Assembly (NCBI GenBank): GCA_016283175.1
Contig: JAEEMK010000060.1
Span: 1 to 38,595, forward strand
Origin: Bacteroidales bacterium
GTDB taxonomy: Bacteria; Bacteroidota; Bacteroidia; Bacteroidales; P3
DNA length: 38,595 nucleotides
Direction of reading: 5' to 3'
The notes below the pieces were generated by a model. That model was not told the DNA's origin, did not search any database, and saw nothing but the letters and a program-made list of their open reading frames with translations. Both the position numbers and the translations under genes were made by a program. Shown here piece after piece: positions 28,762 through 36,083 of the stretch; the stretch's first letter is position 1, and the number at the start of each line of letters is the position of its first letter.

Positions 28762-30639
28762 ATGAGAATCTTTACTTTTAAACGTTCAATCGCCATTGCT
28801 TGCAGTGCAATGTTAAGTGCTGCAATATTCCAATCCTGTGGTGGTGAGGTGACCACACTGACCAATGAACAAATTGCAGAATTACAGGGACAGCTGGATT
28901 CGACGATGCAGCTTTATGAAGAAGTGAAATCACAAAATGCCGATTTCAGCAAACAGATGGCCTCGCGCGACAGCGCTATCAACGCACAGGCTGAAGAAAT
29001 ACAAAGCCTTTTAGATCAGATGGGTGGCAAAAAGCCTGTCAGTAACGCCAACAAATCGCAGGTTGAAAAACAGCTTCGCGAAAAGGAAAACACTATCAAG
29101 CAGCTGCAGAAACAGTTGGATCAACAAACGAAACAACTGAATGCACTCAAATCGTCATCAAACAACAATGCGTCGAAAGACAACAGTGCCCAATACAAAA
29201 ACCAGATAGCACAACTGCAAAAACAAATCGCACAGCAAGAGAAACAGATTAACGAACTCAAAAAAGACAGCAAAAAGCAGAACAACAACAATACTGGTTC
29301 TGCGAACTGCGACAATGTGAAGAAAAGCTATGAGTCGCAGGTTGCTGAACTTAATGGCGAAATCAAGACCTACAAAAACCAGATTGCTGATCTTCACAAG
29401 CAAATAAAATCGCTAAAGAGCGAAGTCTCGAAGATGCAGTCTGCTGCTTCCGGCAATGAAAGCAATGCCGAAGAGTTGAAAACTCTGAAAGGTGAACTTC
29501 GCGATGCTACTGTACAGCTTAATGAGTGCCGTCGTATGAACACTCAATATCAGAAAGATGTCAAAGAGGCAAAAGACGACCTTGCAAAATGCCAGTCAGA
29601 ACTCACTTCCAGCAAGGAACAGTTGAAAATGCTTCAGAACACACAGGGAGAAAGTGGCAAAAACGAACAACTGCTACGTGCTGAACTGGCTGCTTTGACT
29701 CAGCAGGAAGCACAATGCCGTACACAAAACGAGGAACTTACGAAATCGCAGCAGGCTTTGGTTCAGGAGTGCGAAAACTCCAAGCAGAGCCTTAAGGCCA
29801 ACATCAGCGACTTGCAGCAACAAGTTCTTGCGCTCCAGTCGCGTGTAGACCAATTGAATGGTGAAAACACAGAATTGAAGAGTTATATTGGTAACAAACA
29901 GGAGAGTAATACAACTACCCAGTCGGATGCACAGACTGTTGCGGAACTGACAGCTCAAGTCGAAAACCAACGTCAACAGATTGAACGTCTGCAGAACGAA
30001 TTGGATGCTGCCAAGAAAAACAATGCCAGCGCAACGCCTTCAAAGGGTGCGGTTAACCAGAAACTTATTGAGCTGCAGTCACTCTGTGATGGATATGTGG
30101 CGGAAATAGAGCGTCTGCGTGCCGAAAACAAACAGCTTAGAAATGAAAATGCCGAACTCAAGGAGAAAGTATCCTCCAGTTCCGATCTTATTGCCGAGAA
30201 TGAGCGTCTCCAGCAAAAGGTTAAACTTGCATCGGTACTTGTTACCAGTGATCTCAAGGCTACACCTGCCAAGAGTGTCAAGATTGGTAACGTGGTGAAG
30301 CCGACTACTAAAGCTTCGCAAACTAATTACATTCGTCTGGATTGCCGCATCCTTGACAACAATGTCATCGATCCCGGTTCAATGACTATTTTTGCCCGTA
30401 TTTCCAATGCTGCCGACCGTGCTATATTCAATGGTTCTGCTGAGGATTTTTCCTTCGACCTCAATGGCACCACAATGCAGTATACTGCCAAACAGGATAT
30501 AGAATTCACTGGTTCTGGCCGTACGCTGACAATGCTTTGGAAGAAAGGCGATTCTGTTGAATTAACGCCAGGCCTTTACTGGGTGAAGCTTTATGCCAAT
30601 GGATATGAAATTGGCAAAGTCTCATTCAAACTTGATTGA
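28762..30639 (+). CDS. coiled-coil lipoprotein with a C-terminal beta domain
   Basis: Not recognised as a named family. The 625 residues start with a lipoprotein signal (SIAIACSAMLSAAIFQSC, cysteine at about residue 26). Residues about 35-510 are nearly continuous coiled coil rich in Gln, Lys, Glu and Asn, with repeats such as QLQKQLDQQTKQLN, QIAQLQKQIAQQEKQINELKK and ENKQLRNENAELKEKV, broken by short Ser/Asn-rich loops. From about 520 a compact beta domain follows (YIRLDCRILDNNVIDPGSMTIF, DFSFDLNGTTMQYTA, GLYWVKLYANGYEIGKVSF). The layout suggests a rod reaching from a membrane across the periplasm with a binding head. The next gene starts one base after the stop, tying it to the MurL-MurD protein; a structural envelope role is inference. 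Confidence 0.85.
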   Translation: MRIFTFKRSIAIACSAMLSAAIFQSCGGEVTTLTNEQIAELQGQLDSTMQLYEEVKSQNADFSKQMASRDSAINAQAEEIQSLLDQMGGKKPVSNANKSQVEKQLREKENTIKQLQKQLDQQTKQLNALKSSSNNNASKDNSAQYKNQIAQLQKQIAQQEKQINELKKDSKKQNNNNTGSANCDNVKKSYESQVAELNGEIKTYKNQIADLHKQIKSLKSEVSKMQSAASGNESNAEELKTLKGELRDATVQLNECRRMNTQYQKDVKEAKDDLAKCQSELTSSKEQLKMLQNTQGESGKNEQLLRAELAALTQQEAQCRTQNEELTKSQQALVQECENSKQSLKANISDLQQQVLALQSRVDQLNGENTELKSYIGNKQESNTTTQSDAQTVAELTAQVENQRQQIERLQNELDAAKKNNASATPSKGAVNQKLIELQSLCDGYVAEIERLRAENKQLRNENAELKEKVSSSSDLIAENERLQQKVKLASVLVTSDLKATPAKSVKIGNVVKPTTKASQTNYIRLDCRILDNNVIDPGSMTIFARISNAADRAIFNGSAEDFSFDLNGTTMQYTAKQDIEFTGSGRTLTMLWKKGDSVELTPGLYWVKLYANGYEIGKVSFKLD

Positions 30640-30640
30640 G

Positions 30641-33370
30641 ATGTCAAAACAAAAAGCATACAATACATATCGTCAGATATTCCCAAGGTTTGTCTACGAG
30701 AGTTTTAATTATGATGTGCAGCCAGATGGTCTGCACATCTCTTTTTATTTCAGATTGATAGCGAAAGAAGCCACAGTCTGTGGCGACAAACTTACATTCC
30801 ATCCAGCCGCTTTCATACCCGCGCGTTCTTTCCTTCATCCTGAAATGTTAAGCAAAACGGCACTCGATACACTTGTGTTCAATATAGGAATGATCGAGCT
30901 TGTCAGTTATTGGAAATGTTATTGCCCACCCATTGTCGAAATTCGGCCTTACCGCCTTTCCGACAGCCAGATTGCTTTTTGGAAGAAAATATATTACAAT
31001 GGCCTCGGCGAGTTTTTCTATACCAACGGCATCCATAGCGGTATAGATGATTTTATGACGTTTGAAATGTCTGATGGAACAAAAGGTTTTGCCGAATGCG
31101 ACGGGCTCTTTTGTGACAATGCTACTTGCGACGACCATATTGTTCCCATCGGTGGCGGCAAGGATTCCGTTGTGACACTTGAAATCCTTGGCGGCGGAGC
31201 CGACACAGTCGGCAAGGATGCCGTCGACAGACCTTTGCCGCTGATTATGAATCCCCGGGGCGCAACAGTTGAATGTGTCGCCAAAGCTGGCTATTCTCTC
31301 AACGATGTCATTGTGATCAAACGTACCATCGACCCTCTGCTGCTTGATTTCAACAAACAGGGTGCCCTGAATGGGCATACCCCTTTTAGCGCGATGCTGG
31401 CTTTCTACACCTTGCTTGCCTCCGCTTTGACAGGTAAAAGGCCCCGCATTGCACTGTCCAACGAAAGCAGCGCCAACGAAAGCACTGTTTCCGGCACCGA
31501 AGTCAACCATCAGTATTCCAAGAGTTTTGAATTCGAGCAGGACTTCCGTTCCTATGTGGCAGATAATATCTCGAAACAATTCAACTATTATAGTTTCTTG
31601 CGGCCTCTCACCGAACTGCAAATAGCAATGCTTTTCTCGCAGTATGGTCATTATCACGATGTTTTCAAGAGTTGCAACGTGGGCAGCAAAGAGGATATCT
31701 GGTGCGGTCATTGTGCCAAATGCCTATTTGCCTACATCATTCTCTCGCCGTTCTTGGAACCACAACGTCTAAATGCCGTTTTCGGCAAAAATATGCTTGA
31801 CGATGCAAGCCTTCAGAAAGAGTTCGACCAACTCATAGGCAAAGCCGAGACCAAGCCTTTCGAATGTGTTGGCACCGTAAGCGAAGTCAACGATGCCTTG
31901 TCGATGACCATCGCCAAATGGTATGCTTCTGCCAATCAACTTCCTGCTTTGCTGCAGAGTTACAGGCCGATGTCGCTTTCGAGCGATGTGTACAGCATCA
32001 TCGATGAACATAACCTTGCCGACGACGACAGGCAAAAGCTTGTTGGCGTTCTGCGCAAACCGGCACAAATTGAGCGTTTACTGTGCTATAGGGAACTGTT
32101 CAATTTCTTTGTCGGTCGTGAAGTGCTGATTGCCGGATACGGCCGTGAGGGCAAAAGTACACACAATTTCTTGCAGCGTCTGTTCCCTACACGTCGATTC
32201 GACATAGCAACAAACAATGACGAGATAGACACTGCGTTGAAAAACAAGCGATACGACATAATCATCAAGTCGCCTGGAATACCAACGTTCTTTTTCGAAG
32301 GTAAATGCGACCTCGCCACCATAACGTCACAGACTGACATCTTCCTGCGCTTCTGCGGAGTCAGCGTGATAGGTGTTACCGGGACAAAGGGCAAAAGCAC
32401 CACGGCAAATCTCATCTACCACGTCCTCAACAGTTCGGGGTTCGACACCGTAATGGCAGGCAATATGGGTATCCCGCTTTTCGACATTCTCGACCAGCTC
32501 AACCCGCATACAATCGTTGTCGCCGAATTTTCCTGCCACCAGCTCGAAAACATCCACAAGGGCCCTCAAACGGCAGTGCTGCTCAATCTGTTCCAGGAAC
32601 ACCTTGACCACTACCACGACTACGACGACTATCAAAACGCCAAGATGCAGATTGCCCTCAAGCAGACTATGTGCGACCGCTTTATATATTGCTCCGACAA
32701 CAGCGATTTGCAGGCAAAAGTTATTGAGTATAAGGACAGCATCAAATCCGACATCATCGCCTATAGTCTGGTCGATGCTAAAAAAGCTTCTTTCATAGCC
32801 AATGCCAAATGCGAGCTGAAGGGCGACCACAACCTGTCTGACATCTATGCCGCCTGGCTGGCAGTCAACTGTTATTCTGTCGGTGAAAAAGAACTGTTTG
32901 TCAAAGCGCTTGAATCATTCCGTCCTCTGGAACACCGACTGGAAAAAGTCGCCACAAAAGATGGAGTCACATACTACAACGACTCAATATCAACCATCCC
33001 GCAGACAACGATAGCTGCCATCGAGGCGCTTAAGGACGTCGACACACTCATCCTCGGAGGCTTCAACAGAGGTATAGACTACAAGCCTTTGACCGACTAT
33101 CTTATGAATGAACCGCTGGGCAGGAAGGTGGAAAACATTGTCCTTTTCGGTTCGGCAGGCGAGGCAATTGCAAAAGAATTAAGCGGCAGGAATATGATGT
33201 GCCATTTCGGAGCCGACTATTCAATGGCCGAAGCTGTTGCTTTTGCCGCTGCCAATACGGCAAAGGGAAGCATTTGCCTGCTGTCGCCTGCGGCATCGAG
33301 CTACGACCGTTACAAAAACTTCGAATATCGTGGCAGGGACTTCAAGGATGAAGTCGCAAAACTTAAGTGA
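30641..33370 (+). CDS. MurL-MurD fusion: UDP-MurNAc-L-Ala-L-Glu epimerase joined to a MurD-type ligase
   Basis: Two peptidoglycan precursor enzymes in one 909-residue chain. Residues 1 to about 450 match MurL, the ATP-dependent epimerase that turns the L-Glu of UDP-MurNAc-L-Ala-L-Glu into D-Glu: PIGGGKDS (Gly171-Ser176), SNESSANES, VNHQYSKSFEFE and a CGHCAKC triad (Cys355, Cys358, Cys361). Residues about 492-909 are a Mur ligase: GYGREGKSTHNF, the P-loop GVTGTKGKST (Lys585), AEFSCHQLENI, FQEHLDHY, then YYNDSISTIPQT and LLSPAASSYDRYKNF. E. coli MurD has NDSKATN at the DSIST position; its lysine binds D-Glu, so its absence suits an L-Glu-using, MurD2-like ligase. The ATG at 30641 follows the previous stop by one base; an upstream in-frame ATG at 30593 lies inside that gene. 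No murI is needed for this route. Confidence 0.9.
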   Translation: MSKQKAYNTYRQIFPRFVYESFNYDVQPDGLHISFYFRLIAKEATVCGDKLTFHPAAFIPARSFLHPEMLSKTALDTLVFNIGMIELVSYWKCYCPPIVEIRPYRLSDSQIAFWKKIYYNGLGEFFYTNGIHSGIDDFMTFEMSDGTKGFAECDGLFCDNATCDDHIVPIGGGKDSVVTLEILGGGADTVGKDAVDRPLPLIMNPRGATVECVAKAGYSLNDVIVIKRTIDPLLLDFNKQGALNGHTPFSAMLAFYTLLASALTGKRPRIALSNESSANESTVSGTEVNHQYSKSFEFEQDFRSYVADNISKQFNYYSFLRPLTELQIAMLFSQYGHYHDVFKSCNVGSKEDIWCGHCAKCLFAYIILSPFLEPQRLNAVFGKNMLDDASLQKEFDQLIGKAETKPFECVGTVSEVNDALSMTIAKWYASANQLPALLQSYRPMSLSSDVYSIIDEHNLADDDRQKLVGVLRKPAQIERLLCYRELFNFFVGREVLIAGYGREGKSTHNFLQRLFPTRRFDIATNNDEIDTALKNKRYDIIIKSPGIPTFFFEGKCDLATITSQTDIFLRFCGVSVIGVTGTKGKSTTANLIYHVLNSSGFDTVMAGNMGIPLFDILDQLNPHTIVVAEFSCHQLENIHKGPQTAVLLNLFQEHLDHYHDYDDYQNAKMQIALKQTMCDRFIYCSDNSDLQAKVIEYKDSIKSDIIAYSLVDAKKASFIANAKCELKGDHNLSDIYAAWLAVNCYSVGEKELFVKALESFRPLEHRLEKVATKDGVTYYNDSISTIPQTTIAAIEALKDVDTLILGGFNRGIDYKPLTDYLMNEPLGRKVENIVLFGSAGEAIAKELSGRNMMCHFGADYSMAEAVAFAAANTAKGSICLLSPAASSYDRYKNFEYRGRDFKDEVAKLK

Positions 33371-33378
33371 GACAGAAG

Positions 33379-34467
33379 ATGAAAGAGATAAATGAAATAA
33401 CCGATATTCGCCACCGTCTGCACAACAACCCTGGCGTTTCAGGCAATGAAAAATATGCACACGACACCATAATTGACTTTCTCTCCAAACTGCATCCCAC
33501 CGAGCTAAACAGCAACGTCGGCGGTTATGGCGTTGTGGCCTATTGGAAATCGGATACTGAAAATGCGAAGACCATCGCTTTCCGTGCCGACACCGATGCG
33601 CTGCCCATCGGGCACCGATGCGGACACGACGGCCATACATCAATAATGCTGCGCTTTGCCGAAACAGTGGCAGAAACGAAACTACGCTATAACATAGTGC
33701 TTGTCTTCCAGCCTGAAGAGGAGACGGGCAAAGGCGCCAGAAAGATTGTCGACAGCGGGCTGCTGGCAAAATACAATGTCTCTGCCGTCTTTGGACTGCA
33801 CAATCTGCCGGGATATCCGAAGGGTACCGTTGTCCTCAACCGGGGCACTTTTGCGGCAGCCTCCACAGGAGTCATCTACAGCCTTGCGGGGCGTGAAACA
33901 CACGCTTCTACGCCCGAGAAGGGGCTCAATCCGGGTCGTGCGGCGGCAGCCATCATCAACCGTATGGACACCTTGAACTGCAACACCGCAGATTTGCAGC
34001 AGTTCAGGCAGTCCACACTCATCTGCTGCAGGGTGGGAGAGGAGGCTTTCGGCACTTCAGCTGGACACGGCAAAGTTATGTTCACTCTCCGAGCCTACAC
34101 CAACGACGCTATGTCCGACCTCCTGCGCGATGCCGACACCATTGCGACTGAAGAATCACTACGTTGGCATTTGCAGCTTGAAAAAGACCTGGTTGAGCCT
34201 TTTCGTGCAACGGAAAACACCCCCGAACTTGTCGACAAGCTCAACGACATTTTCACACACCGTCGTAAAGTCACCGTAGCCAACCGGCCGTTCCGTTGGA
34301 GTGAGGATTTTGCCGAATATCTATCCCTCATTCCAGGAGCCTTCTTCGGACTCGGCAGTGGTGAGAACCAACCCGAACTGCACCATCCCGACTTCGATTT
34401 TCCGGACGAGATAATAGAAGATGGTGCAAAATGCTTCGAATTAATAATGAACAACATAGATTTATGA
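33379..34467 (+). CDS. M20D family amidohydrolase/aminoacylase
   Basis: Cytoplasmic metal-dependent hydrolase that splits amide bonds of N-acylated amino acids or small peptides; no signal peptide. The 362 residues show the M20D pattern: IRHRLHNNPGVSGNE, FRADTDALPIGH, the metal motif CGHDGHT (Cys81, His83, Asp84, His86), FQPEEETGKGARKIV with the catalytic Glu, VFGLHNLPG, HASTPEKGLNPG and the late ligand ELHHPDFDFPDEII. An in-frame GTG at 33367 overlaps the preceding stop; the ATG at 33379 is preferred. It lies nine bases after the MurL-MurD gene and overlaps the C69 gene by four, so it belongs to the same operon and may act on wall-derived or dietary peptides. Confidence 0.92.
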   Translation: MKEINEITDIRHRLHNNPGVSGNEKYAHDTIIDFLSKLHPTELNSNVGGYGVVAYWKSDTENAKTIAFRADTDALPIGHRCGHDGHTSIMLRFAETVAETKLRYNIVLVFQPEEETGKGARKIVDSGLLAKYNVSAVFGLHNLPGYPKGTVVLNRGTFAAASTGVIYSLAGRETHASTPEKGLNPGRAAAAIINRMDTLNCNTADLQQFRQSTLICCRVGEEAFGTSAGHGKVMFTLRAYTNDAMSDLLRDADTIATEESLRWHLQLEKDLVEPFRATENTPELVDKLNDIFTHRRKVTVANRPFRWSEDFAEYLSLIPGAFFGLGSGENQPELHHPDFDFPDEIIEDGAKCFELIMNNIDL

Positions 34468-36083
34468 AAAAAAACATTCTTTTACTATCCTTCCTCCTTG
34501 CCGTCGGCATTGCCTACAGCCAGGATTACAATTCACAAATCGTCGACGGTCAGTCCTGCACGTCAATAATGGTGGGCAAAAAAGTCTCCACCGACGGTTC
34601 CGTCATCACCTCGCACACCTGCGACGGACGCTACCGCACCTGGATGACCGTCGAGCCTGCCGCCGACTATAAAGTCGGTGCGCTCCACACCGTCCGCAAA
34701 GGCACTATGCACACCGCCTACCGCGATGACACCACCGGCGTAAGCATTGCCGGCACCATTCCGCAGGCGCTGCACACCTATGCCTATCTCAACACCGCCT
34801 ATCCCTGTCTCAACGAAAAACAGCTTGCCATCGGCGAAACAACTTTCGGAGGTCCCGACACGCTTGTCAACAAGAACGGAATGTTCCTTATCGAAGAACT
34901 TGAGCGTGTGGCTCTTATGCGCTGCGACAATGCCCGCGACGCCATACGTCTCATAGGCCGTCTTGTCAAAGAGTACGGCTATGGCGACGGTGGCGAATGC
35001 ATCACCATTGCCGATCGCAACGAAGTGTGGCAAATGGAGATACTTGGTGAAGGTCCCGACCGCATTGGTGGCGTGTGGGCTGCACAGCGCATCCCGGACG
35101 ACCACGTAGGCGTCAGCGCCAACATACCGCGCATAGGACGCCTGCAGCGTGACAACCCCGACTACTTTATGTGTTCCGACAACATCGAACAGGTGGCCCG
35201 CAAATTCAACCTATGGGACGGCAAGGACGACTTTGTCTTCTGGAAAGCATTCAATGCCTCCTACGCCAACGGTAAAAACTTCCGCGAACGTGAATTCTTC
35301 ATTCTCAACGCACTTGCACCTTCGCTGGGGCTGTCGATGGATATGGCCGAACTGCCTTTCTCGGTCAAACCCGATCAGAAAGTTGACGTCACCGATGTGA
35401 TGCAGTTGCTCCGTTCCACCTACGAAGGCACCGATATGGATATGTGCCGCAACATCAAGATGGTGGCTAAACGTCGGCAGAAAGATGGCAGCATAACGAT
35501 GGACACCATCATTAGCCCTGTTGCCAACCCCTGGATGGGTGGCAATATGCAGAACACACTCAATATGCTGCGTCCGGGAACAGTCGATTTCAAACGCACA
35601 GTCAGTGTTGCCTGGTGCTCCTATTCCTTTGTGGCCCAGCTGCGCGACTGGTTGCCCGACGAAGTCGGCGGTGTCTGCTGGGTGGCTGTCGACAATCCGG
35701 GCCAGAGTCCCCGTGTGCCCGTCTTCTGCGGCACAAGCCGTATGCCGCAGGCCTACAGCCTCTGCGGTCACAAAAAATATGACGACAACGCCGTCCTGTG
35801 GCAGTACCGCAAAGCCAACAAACTCGCTACAGTTGCCTGGCAGCGCACAAAAGACGAAATGATGAAGCAGGTGTTGGAACAGGAGCAAAAAGCCATCAAG
35901 GGCCTTGCCGAGTTGGAAAACAGTGTTAAAGCCCTCAAGGTTCGCGAAAGCGAAGATTTCGACCCCAAAGCACAAATCGCCAGCCTGCTCAACGACTACA
36001 CCTACCGCGTCTACGACAACACCACCTATGCCTGGAAGCAGCTCGAAGCCCGCTTCTGGCAGATGTTCGGAAGTGGATTTTGA
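34464..36083 (+). CDS. C69 family dipeptidase, secreted
   Basis: N-terminal-nucleophile dipeptidase (539 residues), probably acting outside the cytoplasm. It opens with a Sec signal (MKKNILLLSFLLAVGIAYSQ) and a short pro-stretch, then QSCTSIMVGKKVSTDGSVITSHTCDG: the expected nucleophile is Cys32, exposed after cleavage, in the usual C-T-x-x-x-V-G-K context. Other C69 landmarks are AIGETTFGG, GGECITIADRNEVWQMEILG, GVSANIPRIG and RLGWW-like segments replaced by WCSYSFVAQLRDWLPDEVGGVCWVAVDNP. The start overlaps the M20 gene (ATGA). An in-frame ATG at 34431 lies in the preceding gene and would push the signal away from the N-terminus. Confidence 0.93.
   Translation: MKKNILLLSFLLAVGIAYSQDYNSQIVDGQSCTSIMVGKKVSTDGSVITSHTCDGRYRTWMTVEPAADYKVGALHTVRKGTMHTAYRDDTTGVSIAGTIPQALHTYAYLNTAYPCLNEKQLAIGETTFGGPDTLVNKNGMFLIEELERVALMRCDNARDAIRLIGRLVKEYGYGDGGECITIADRNEVWQMEILGEGPDRIGGVWAAQRIPDDHVGVSANIPRIGRLQRDNPDYFMCSDNIEQVARKFNLWDGKDDFVFWKAFNASYANGKNFREREFFILNALAPSLGLSMDMAELPFSVKPDQKVDVTDVMQLLRSTYEGTDMDMCRNIKMVAKRRQKDGSITMDTIISPVANPWMGGNMQNTLNMLRPGTVDFKRTVSVAWCSYSFVAQLRDWLPDEVGGVCWVAVDNPGQSPRVPVFCGTSRMPQAYSLCGHKKYDDNAVLWQYRKANKLATVAWQRTKDEMMKQVLEQEQKAIKGLAELENSVKALKVRESEDFDPKAQIASLLNDYTYRVYDNTTYAWKQLEARFWQMFGSGF

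Follow-up and report, generated by a model that had tools for sequence, protein, structure and literature searches.

The window analysed here is the whole 38,595-nucleotide stretch of contig JAEEMK010000060.1 (assembly GCA_016283175.1) from a Bacteroidales bacterium of the family P3, and it carries, at 30641..33370 on the plus strand, a single gene, murL-murD2, whose translation gives 909 residues and a stop codon with zero internal stops. The source assembly has 2.25 Mb and is 93.8% complete, and the gene lies on its contig 77. The original prediction had read the product as a MurL epimerase joined to a complete Mur ligase in one polypeptide, and this arrangement was confirmed by the open frame, by matches to the NCBIfam models NF041275 and TIGR01087, and by the predicted structure. 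All motifs singled out at the time are in place: GGGKDS (residues 171–176) and C355, C358 and C361 of CGHCAKC in the first half, GTKGKST (581–587), DSIST (781–785) and LSPAASSYD (881–889) in the second. As argued below from sequence, the protein is very probably a bifunctional peptidoglycan enzyme that runs the MurD2/MurL bypass in place of MurI and MurD.

A search for related loci confirmed at least 574 stretches, from which 80 named loci were kept. An alternative in-frame ATG is present at 30593, 16 codons 5′ of 30641; we favour 30641 because in 12 of the 80 loci the first start codon of the frame aligns exactly with residue 1 of this start. Thirty-two fused rows could be aligned, three pairs of which are the identical protein from two collections, leaving 29 distinct fused proteins with the window's own included. 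Thus, the fusion is not a one-off assembly error. An AlphaFold2 model of the whole fusion built on these 32 rows has a predicted local distance difference test score (pLDDT) of 88.5 and a predicted template modelling score (pTM) of 0.82, and its top 33 PDB matches are all MurD structures. Lower-confidence blocks are found at the end of the model of the MurL half and at residues ~471–480 of the whole model; together with the start of the murD match at residue 495 they place a linker at residues ~452–480 (31994..32080, plus strand, limits approximate).

The MurL half (residues 1–451, 30641..31993, plus strand) has the PP-loop GGGKDS and conserved C345, C355, C358 and C361. NF041275 matches residues 71–422 over model positions 53–392 of 447 (246.9 bits, E 2.8e-73; the cut-off is considered below), and the sole other match to this half is Pfam DUF6395, below cut-off (E 0.01). 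The half shares 38% identity with Xanthomonas sacchari MurL over 350 columns. Across 86 MurL rows 68 residues are invariant, and 54 of them, including GGGKDS and the Cys residues, are identical in the X. sacchari protein. All 86 rows match NF041275 and no other family at E <= 1e-3, which answers the check for a different ATP-pyrophosphatase family at the level of sequence. At the level of fold, an AlphaFold2 model of this half (86 rows; pLDDT 92.5, pTM 0.92) has QatC and QueC, PP-loop enzymes with a GGKDS-like ATP loop, as its nearest solved structures, at 11–14% identity in fold alignments. We rejected membership in the QatC defence family by sequence, as the PADLOC defence-family models gave no match to the half up to E 1. 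No solved MurL structure is among the sequence-search and fold matches listed; the QatC/QueC-like fold therefore suggests that MurL itself belongs to the PP-loop class, and does not contradict the assignment. The mechanism of MurL is called unclear in the accessible text of two reviews, PMC8788868 being one of them, and the fold hints at how the enzyme generates AMP.

The ligase half (residues 481–909, 32081..33367, plus strand) is matched by TIGR01087 at residues 495–905 with 291.7 bits, above the cut-off of 211.95, which makes it a MurD-family ligase; in Pfam the Mur ligase middle domain is above cut-off and the C domain slightly below. It has a P-loop at 581–587 and K668 at the position of the carbamylated Lys in E. 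coli MurD. In the alignment with E. coli K-12 MurD (initial Met not counted), E653, R810 and I783 of the fusion stand at the positions of D182, K348 and K319, and X. sacchari MurD2 carries E206, R367 and I339 at the same three. According to PMC8788868, X. oryzae MurD2 has Glu197 and Arg358 where E. coli MurD has Asp182 and Lys348, the E197D/R358K double mutant of the Xanthomonas enzyme switches to D-glutamate (D-Glu), and the K319T mutant of E. coli MurD gains the use of L-glutamate (L-Glu).

These residues separate MurD2 from MurD across the alignment. The set of 101 distinct MurD2 rows counts the window's own and has no pair that is 95% identical; 100 of these rows have E/R/I and one has D/R/I. 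The canonical D/K/K is found in 18/18 MurDs from genomes without detected MurL, and in 14 of the 15 complete MurDs encoded in the division and cell wall (dcw) clusters of MurL-bearing genomes, the remaining one having N/K/K. The position of E. coli L416 is non-discriminating, with Tyr in 100/101 MurD2s and Phe in most canonical MurDs. The sole row with Asp at position 182 comes from L170, a contig of a metagenome-assembled genome labelled Pseudobutyrivibrio with a MurL/MurD2 pair, which may reflect contamination or transfer.

Glutamate supply and the proposed bypass

The original prediction had pointed to murI, D-amino-acid transaminase and a stand-alone murD as the genes to look for in the genome, and none was detected above cut-off in the window's own assembly. 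Two murI models (TIGR00067 and PF01177) gave no match in this 93.8% complete assembly, with controls positive in 10 of 14 cases. The D-amino-acid transaminase model TIGR01121 found nothing above cut-off in the same assembly, and D-Glu formation by this route was rejected since its only hit is a branched-chain transaminase. A second complete murD was likewise rejected: the only match above the murD cut-off is the fusion.

The same holds for murI in relatives. No match above cut-off was found in any of the 149 genomes of the family, nor in any of 52 further genomes examined as a separate set, which comprised 8 of the family and 44 MurL-bearing genomes placed outside its groups by the MurL tree and by record titles (e.g. 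Lentimicrobiaceae for L141). Weak matches to the murI model occur in one family genome (G048), where cysteate/aspartate racemase models fit better, and in 8 of the 52, of which the four examined are aspartate/glutamate-type racemases. The five hits examined were rejected as MurI, since each scores above the threshold of TIGR00035, a model of aspartate-type racemases.

The bypass interpretation is supported by the family assignments, by the L-Glu residues, by the failure to detect murI or a further complete murD, and by the adjacency of both genes in relatives (see below). In such a pathway the MurD2 half would first attach L-Glu, and the MurL half, a PP-loop-type enzyme, would then adenylate the terminal L-Glu carboxylate and epimerise it one-way to D-Glu with release of AMP. 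The adenylation step is one proposed for Xanthomonas MurL in the accessible text of PMC8788868, and for the window's enzyme we infer it, together with the reaction itself. The product would be the D-Glu dipeptide, the usual MurE substrate; free D-Glu synthesis would become unnecessary, and the old murD of the dcw cluster would have been reduced to its C-terminal domain.

Several observations weigh against this reading. The MurL match, at 246.9 bits, is below the curated cut-off of 700 for NF041275, a model that is Xanthomonadales-specific, judging by its name. The assembly is 93.8% complete, and murI or murD might sit in a gap. Seven of the 149 family relatives, three of them at least 90% complete, have no match to the fusion query stronger than E 6e-14 and were for this reason counted as MurL not found. 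Among the 44 MurL-bearing genomes outside the family, 15 (L237–L251) retain a complete murD; none has murI above cut-off, so a simple replacement story leaves these murDs unexplained. Finally, aspartate/glutamate-type racemases might supply D-Glu in some relatives' genomes. Weak racemase hits were seen in two of the genomes with a complete murD (G559 and G565).

Fused and adjacent genes

At E <= 1e-3 a match to the fusion query is present in all 149 family genomes; in three of them (G020, G075 and G114) it lies between 1e-69 and 1e-52. Going by the length of the open frame, some 50 of the 149 carry the fusion among the matches listed. In the wider order, 42 of the 119 genomes sampled have MurL. 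A single-sequence search across the phylum recovered MurL from the window's own genome only (1/395), but just five of the others are shown as same-order, which makes this result hardly informative on the order; the sample of 119 took its place.

The fusion is one of several arrangements of the two genes. In the 80 named loci, MurL and MurD2 are adjacent in 67, fused in 9, and MurL stands alone in 4; in X. sacchari the two genes are adjacent and overlapping. Fused and split forms coexist within one genus, and fusions occur in several genera. A MurL tree with 111 rows, 30 of them fused, needs five changes in the fused label, two of which are forced by well-supported branches; the fusion has therefore probably been gained or lost repeatedly. 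The original prediction had also taken the fusion as strong linkage evidence for the bypass in Bacteroidota. It is indeed consistent with the bypass, but it is not the only such evidence, as unfused adjacent pairs are the commoner form (67 vs 9).

Fusion sets the two activities at 1:1, and the intermediate may have a shorter way to travel. Direct transfer of the intermediate between the halves, as originally proposed, seems to us possible though somewhat doubtful; the fusion may only fix co-expression. Indeed, the chances are about even that the bypass is real while the fusion is mechanistically meaningless, a stop codon between neighbouring genes having been lost with no channelling. The greater frequency of adjacent unfused pairs and the mixture of both forms within one genus fit this account, as do other fusions in the same gene row, a MurL-MurD2-M20 protein and an apparent MurD2-M20 protein. 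On the other hand, the fusion is found in several genera and at separate positions on the MurL tree (five changes at best, two forced), although channelling is not thereby demonstrated. The fusion allows a single-gene test of the bypass pathway.

A free-standing MurD C-terminal domain in the murD slot

The dcw cluster of the window's genome runs murE, mraY, a 181-residue gene, ftsW, murG, murC, ftsQ, ftsA, ftsZ (names assigned by reading sequence and order). The 181-residue gene (L010:6045-6590, which is ~32044–32589 of contig 81 of this genome) occupies the murD slot and encodes a stand-alone MurD C-terminal domain, referred to below as the stub. Its only NCBIfam match is murD, at model positions 291–440, and in Pfam the Mur ligase C domain fits it best, slightly below cut-off. 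The stub is more surprising than the enzyme.

In 136 of the 149 family genomes the stub has a frame of its own with no internal stops; of the remaining 13, three matched the tail of the fusion only, three gave weak matches and seven none. In 49 of 50 family loci examined it lies between mraY and ftsW, the exception, L056, showing neither. The 44 genomes outside the family have, among the matches listed, a stub in 21 and a complete murD in 15, the other 8 being assigned to neither. Both neighbours are present at 18 of 20 outside-family stub loci and one of them at the other two, while complete murDs lie between mraY and ftsW in 15 of 15 cases. G099 (L289), 96% complete and one of the family genomes in which MurL was not found, has the stub.

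We consider it unlikely that the stub is a dying, functionless relic of murD. Such an account fits the loss of the catalytic MurD motifs DSKATN and SPACASFD from stubs of the window's family (elsewhere they are sometimes retained), but it has to contend with a separate frame kept free of stops in 136 genomes, and with a length held at 181–182 residues in 16 of 20 outside-family loci. Furthermore, the stub is under purifying selection: within the window's genus (11 loci, 55 pairs), its ratio of non-synonymous to synonymous differences (pN/pS) ranges from 0.07 to 0.45 with a median of 0.30, similar to that of the neighbouring FtsW (0.32). For comparison, MraY has 0.12 in the same loci, and 13 fused genes have 0.34.

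Eighteen of the 20 outside-family stubs start at one alignment column, which is Met in 16 of 18 MurDs from MurL-negative genomes and in 14 of 15 complete MurDs from MurL-positive ones. Trees interleave stubs with complete MurDs, requiring six changes (three forced), or five and three with a reduced set. After thinning of the rows, the larger tree contained 46 of the 71 stubs and 17 of the 34 MurD2s, and it has long branches; the reduced one used 13 of the 21 outside-family stubs, the less diverged ones being chosen. Because a single origin of the stub is not rejected (approximately unbiased test, P 0.097), several independent truncations of murD are a suggestion only, despite the interleaving in the best trees.

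Whether the stub serves as a non-catalytic docking or regulatory subunit we would put at even chances, and among such roles we favour docking near MraY, MurG and FtsW. In another bacterium, a scaffolding role for MurG towards the cytoplasmic Mur enzymes has been proposed (PMC6420597, accessible text). In the accessible text of PMC12208494 one partner of MurD, in another species, maps to the middle domain rather than the C domain, and this case thus gives docking through the C domain no support. Taking these observations together, we tentatively propose, at somewhat less than even chances, that the MurL/MurD2 bypass took over D-Glu incorporation in a large part of the order and that the displaced murD was cut back, possibly repeatedly, to the same ~181-residue C-terminal domain starting from a Met inside canonical MurD. 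This domain would retain a second, non-catalytic role of MurD, e.g. docking of cytoplasmic Mur enzymes to MraY/MurG/FtsW, perhaps exercised already by a short isoform where murD is complete. The conserved tail raises the question of whether MurD has a role beyond ligation.

Comparison with known enzymes and flanking genes

The closest known counterpart is the MurD2/MurL pair of X. oryzae (XOO_1320/XOO_1319), which, as far as the accessible description goes, has the same two enzyme families, the same specificity residues and no D-Glu-forming genes. Unlike it, the window's enzyme is a single polypeptide in another phylum, and in its genome the dcw cluster still has the C-terminal domain left over from MurD. 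E. coli MurD shares the Mur ligase fold, the P-loop and 28% identity with the window's ligase but lacks the Glu, Arg and Ile that replace D182, K348 and K319, and is not fused to MurL. QatC and QueC resemble the MurL half in fold and not in sequence family. Fused MurE-MurF (NF008896) and MurC-Ddl (NF011171) similarly combine two peptidoglycan steps in one chain; in the window, in contrast, the fusion partner is an epimerase.

It is very improbable that the window's ligase is a plain MurD that adds D-Glu, joined to some other PP-loop enzyme (QatC/QueC-like) with a different substrate, since no PADLOC model (QatC included, if it is among them) matches up to E 1, MurL alone matches the 86 rows, 54 of the 68 invariant residues are common to X. 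sacchari MurL, the ligase has E/R/I and not D/K/K, and no murI was detected to provide D-Glu.

Reviews place the bypass in Gammaproteobacteria, Alphaproteobacteria and actinobacteria and mention orthologues of low similarity in cyanobacteria, a fungus and an amoeba, and PMC8788868 describes it as limited to relatively few genera, in each case as far as their accessible text goes. The finding of MurL in 42 of 119 sampled genomes would extend the bypass to a sizeable part of a gut and environmental Bacteroidota order, where the curated model NF041275 stays under its cut-off. Among the results listed, our literature searches, with most subscription papers outside their coverage, showed no description of fused MurL and MurD, of MurL from Bacteroidota or of a MurD C-terminal domain standing alone.

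Downstream of the fusion, an M20 peptidase gene (33367..34467, plus strand; Pfam M20, 89.7 bits) overlaps its stop by 4 nucleotides, as read at the junction, and is a neighbour rather than part of the enzyme. It is followed by a C69 peptidase gene, the two together spanning 33367–36083. An M20 homologue was found in 42 of 120 MurL loci searched, a set that includes duplicates and has short flanks. One relative has a MurL-MurD2-M20 triple fusion of 1258 residues (L018:430-4203), and in another, L288:2301-5003 is a 900-residue P-loop frame, next to a separate MurL gene, that apparently continues from MurD2 into M20. Directly upstream of the fusion, 28762–30639 encodes a 625-residue coiled-coil-like protein with all Pfam matches below cut-off and, by reading of its sequence, a putative lipoprotein-like N terminus; this gene stands beside MurL in 31 of the 120 loci.

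Two more distant matches were noted. A Pseudonocardia plasmid gene annotated as hypothetical (L291:3806-5206) is a distant MurL homologue in which the PP-loop Lys174 is not conserved in the alignment and which has no murD among its annotated neighbours. An unverified faecal contig labelled ‘Bacteriophage sp.’ (L292), possibly a mislabelled bacterial contig, carries a MurL-like match with 44.7% identity.
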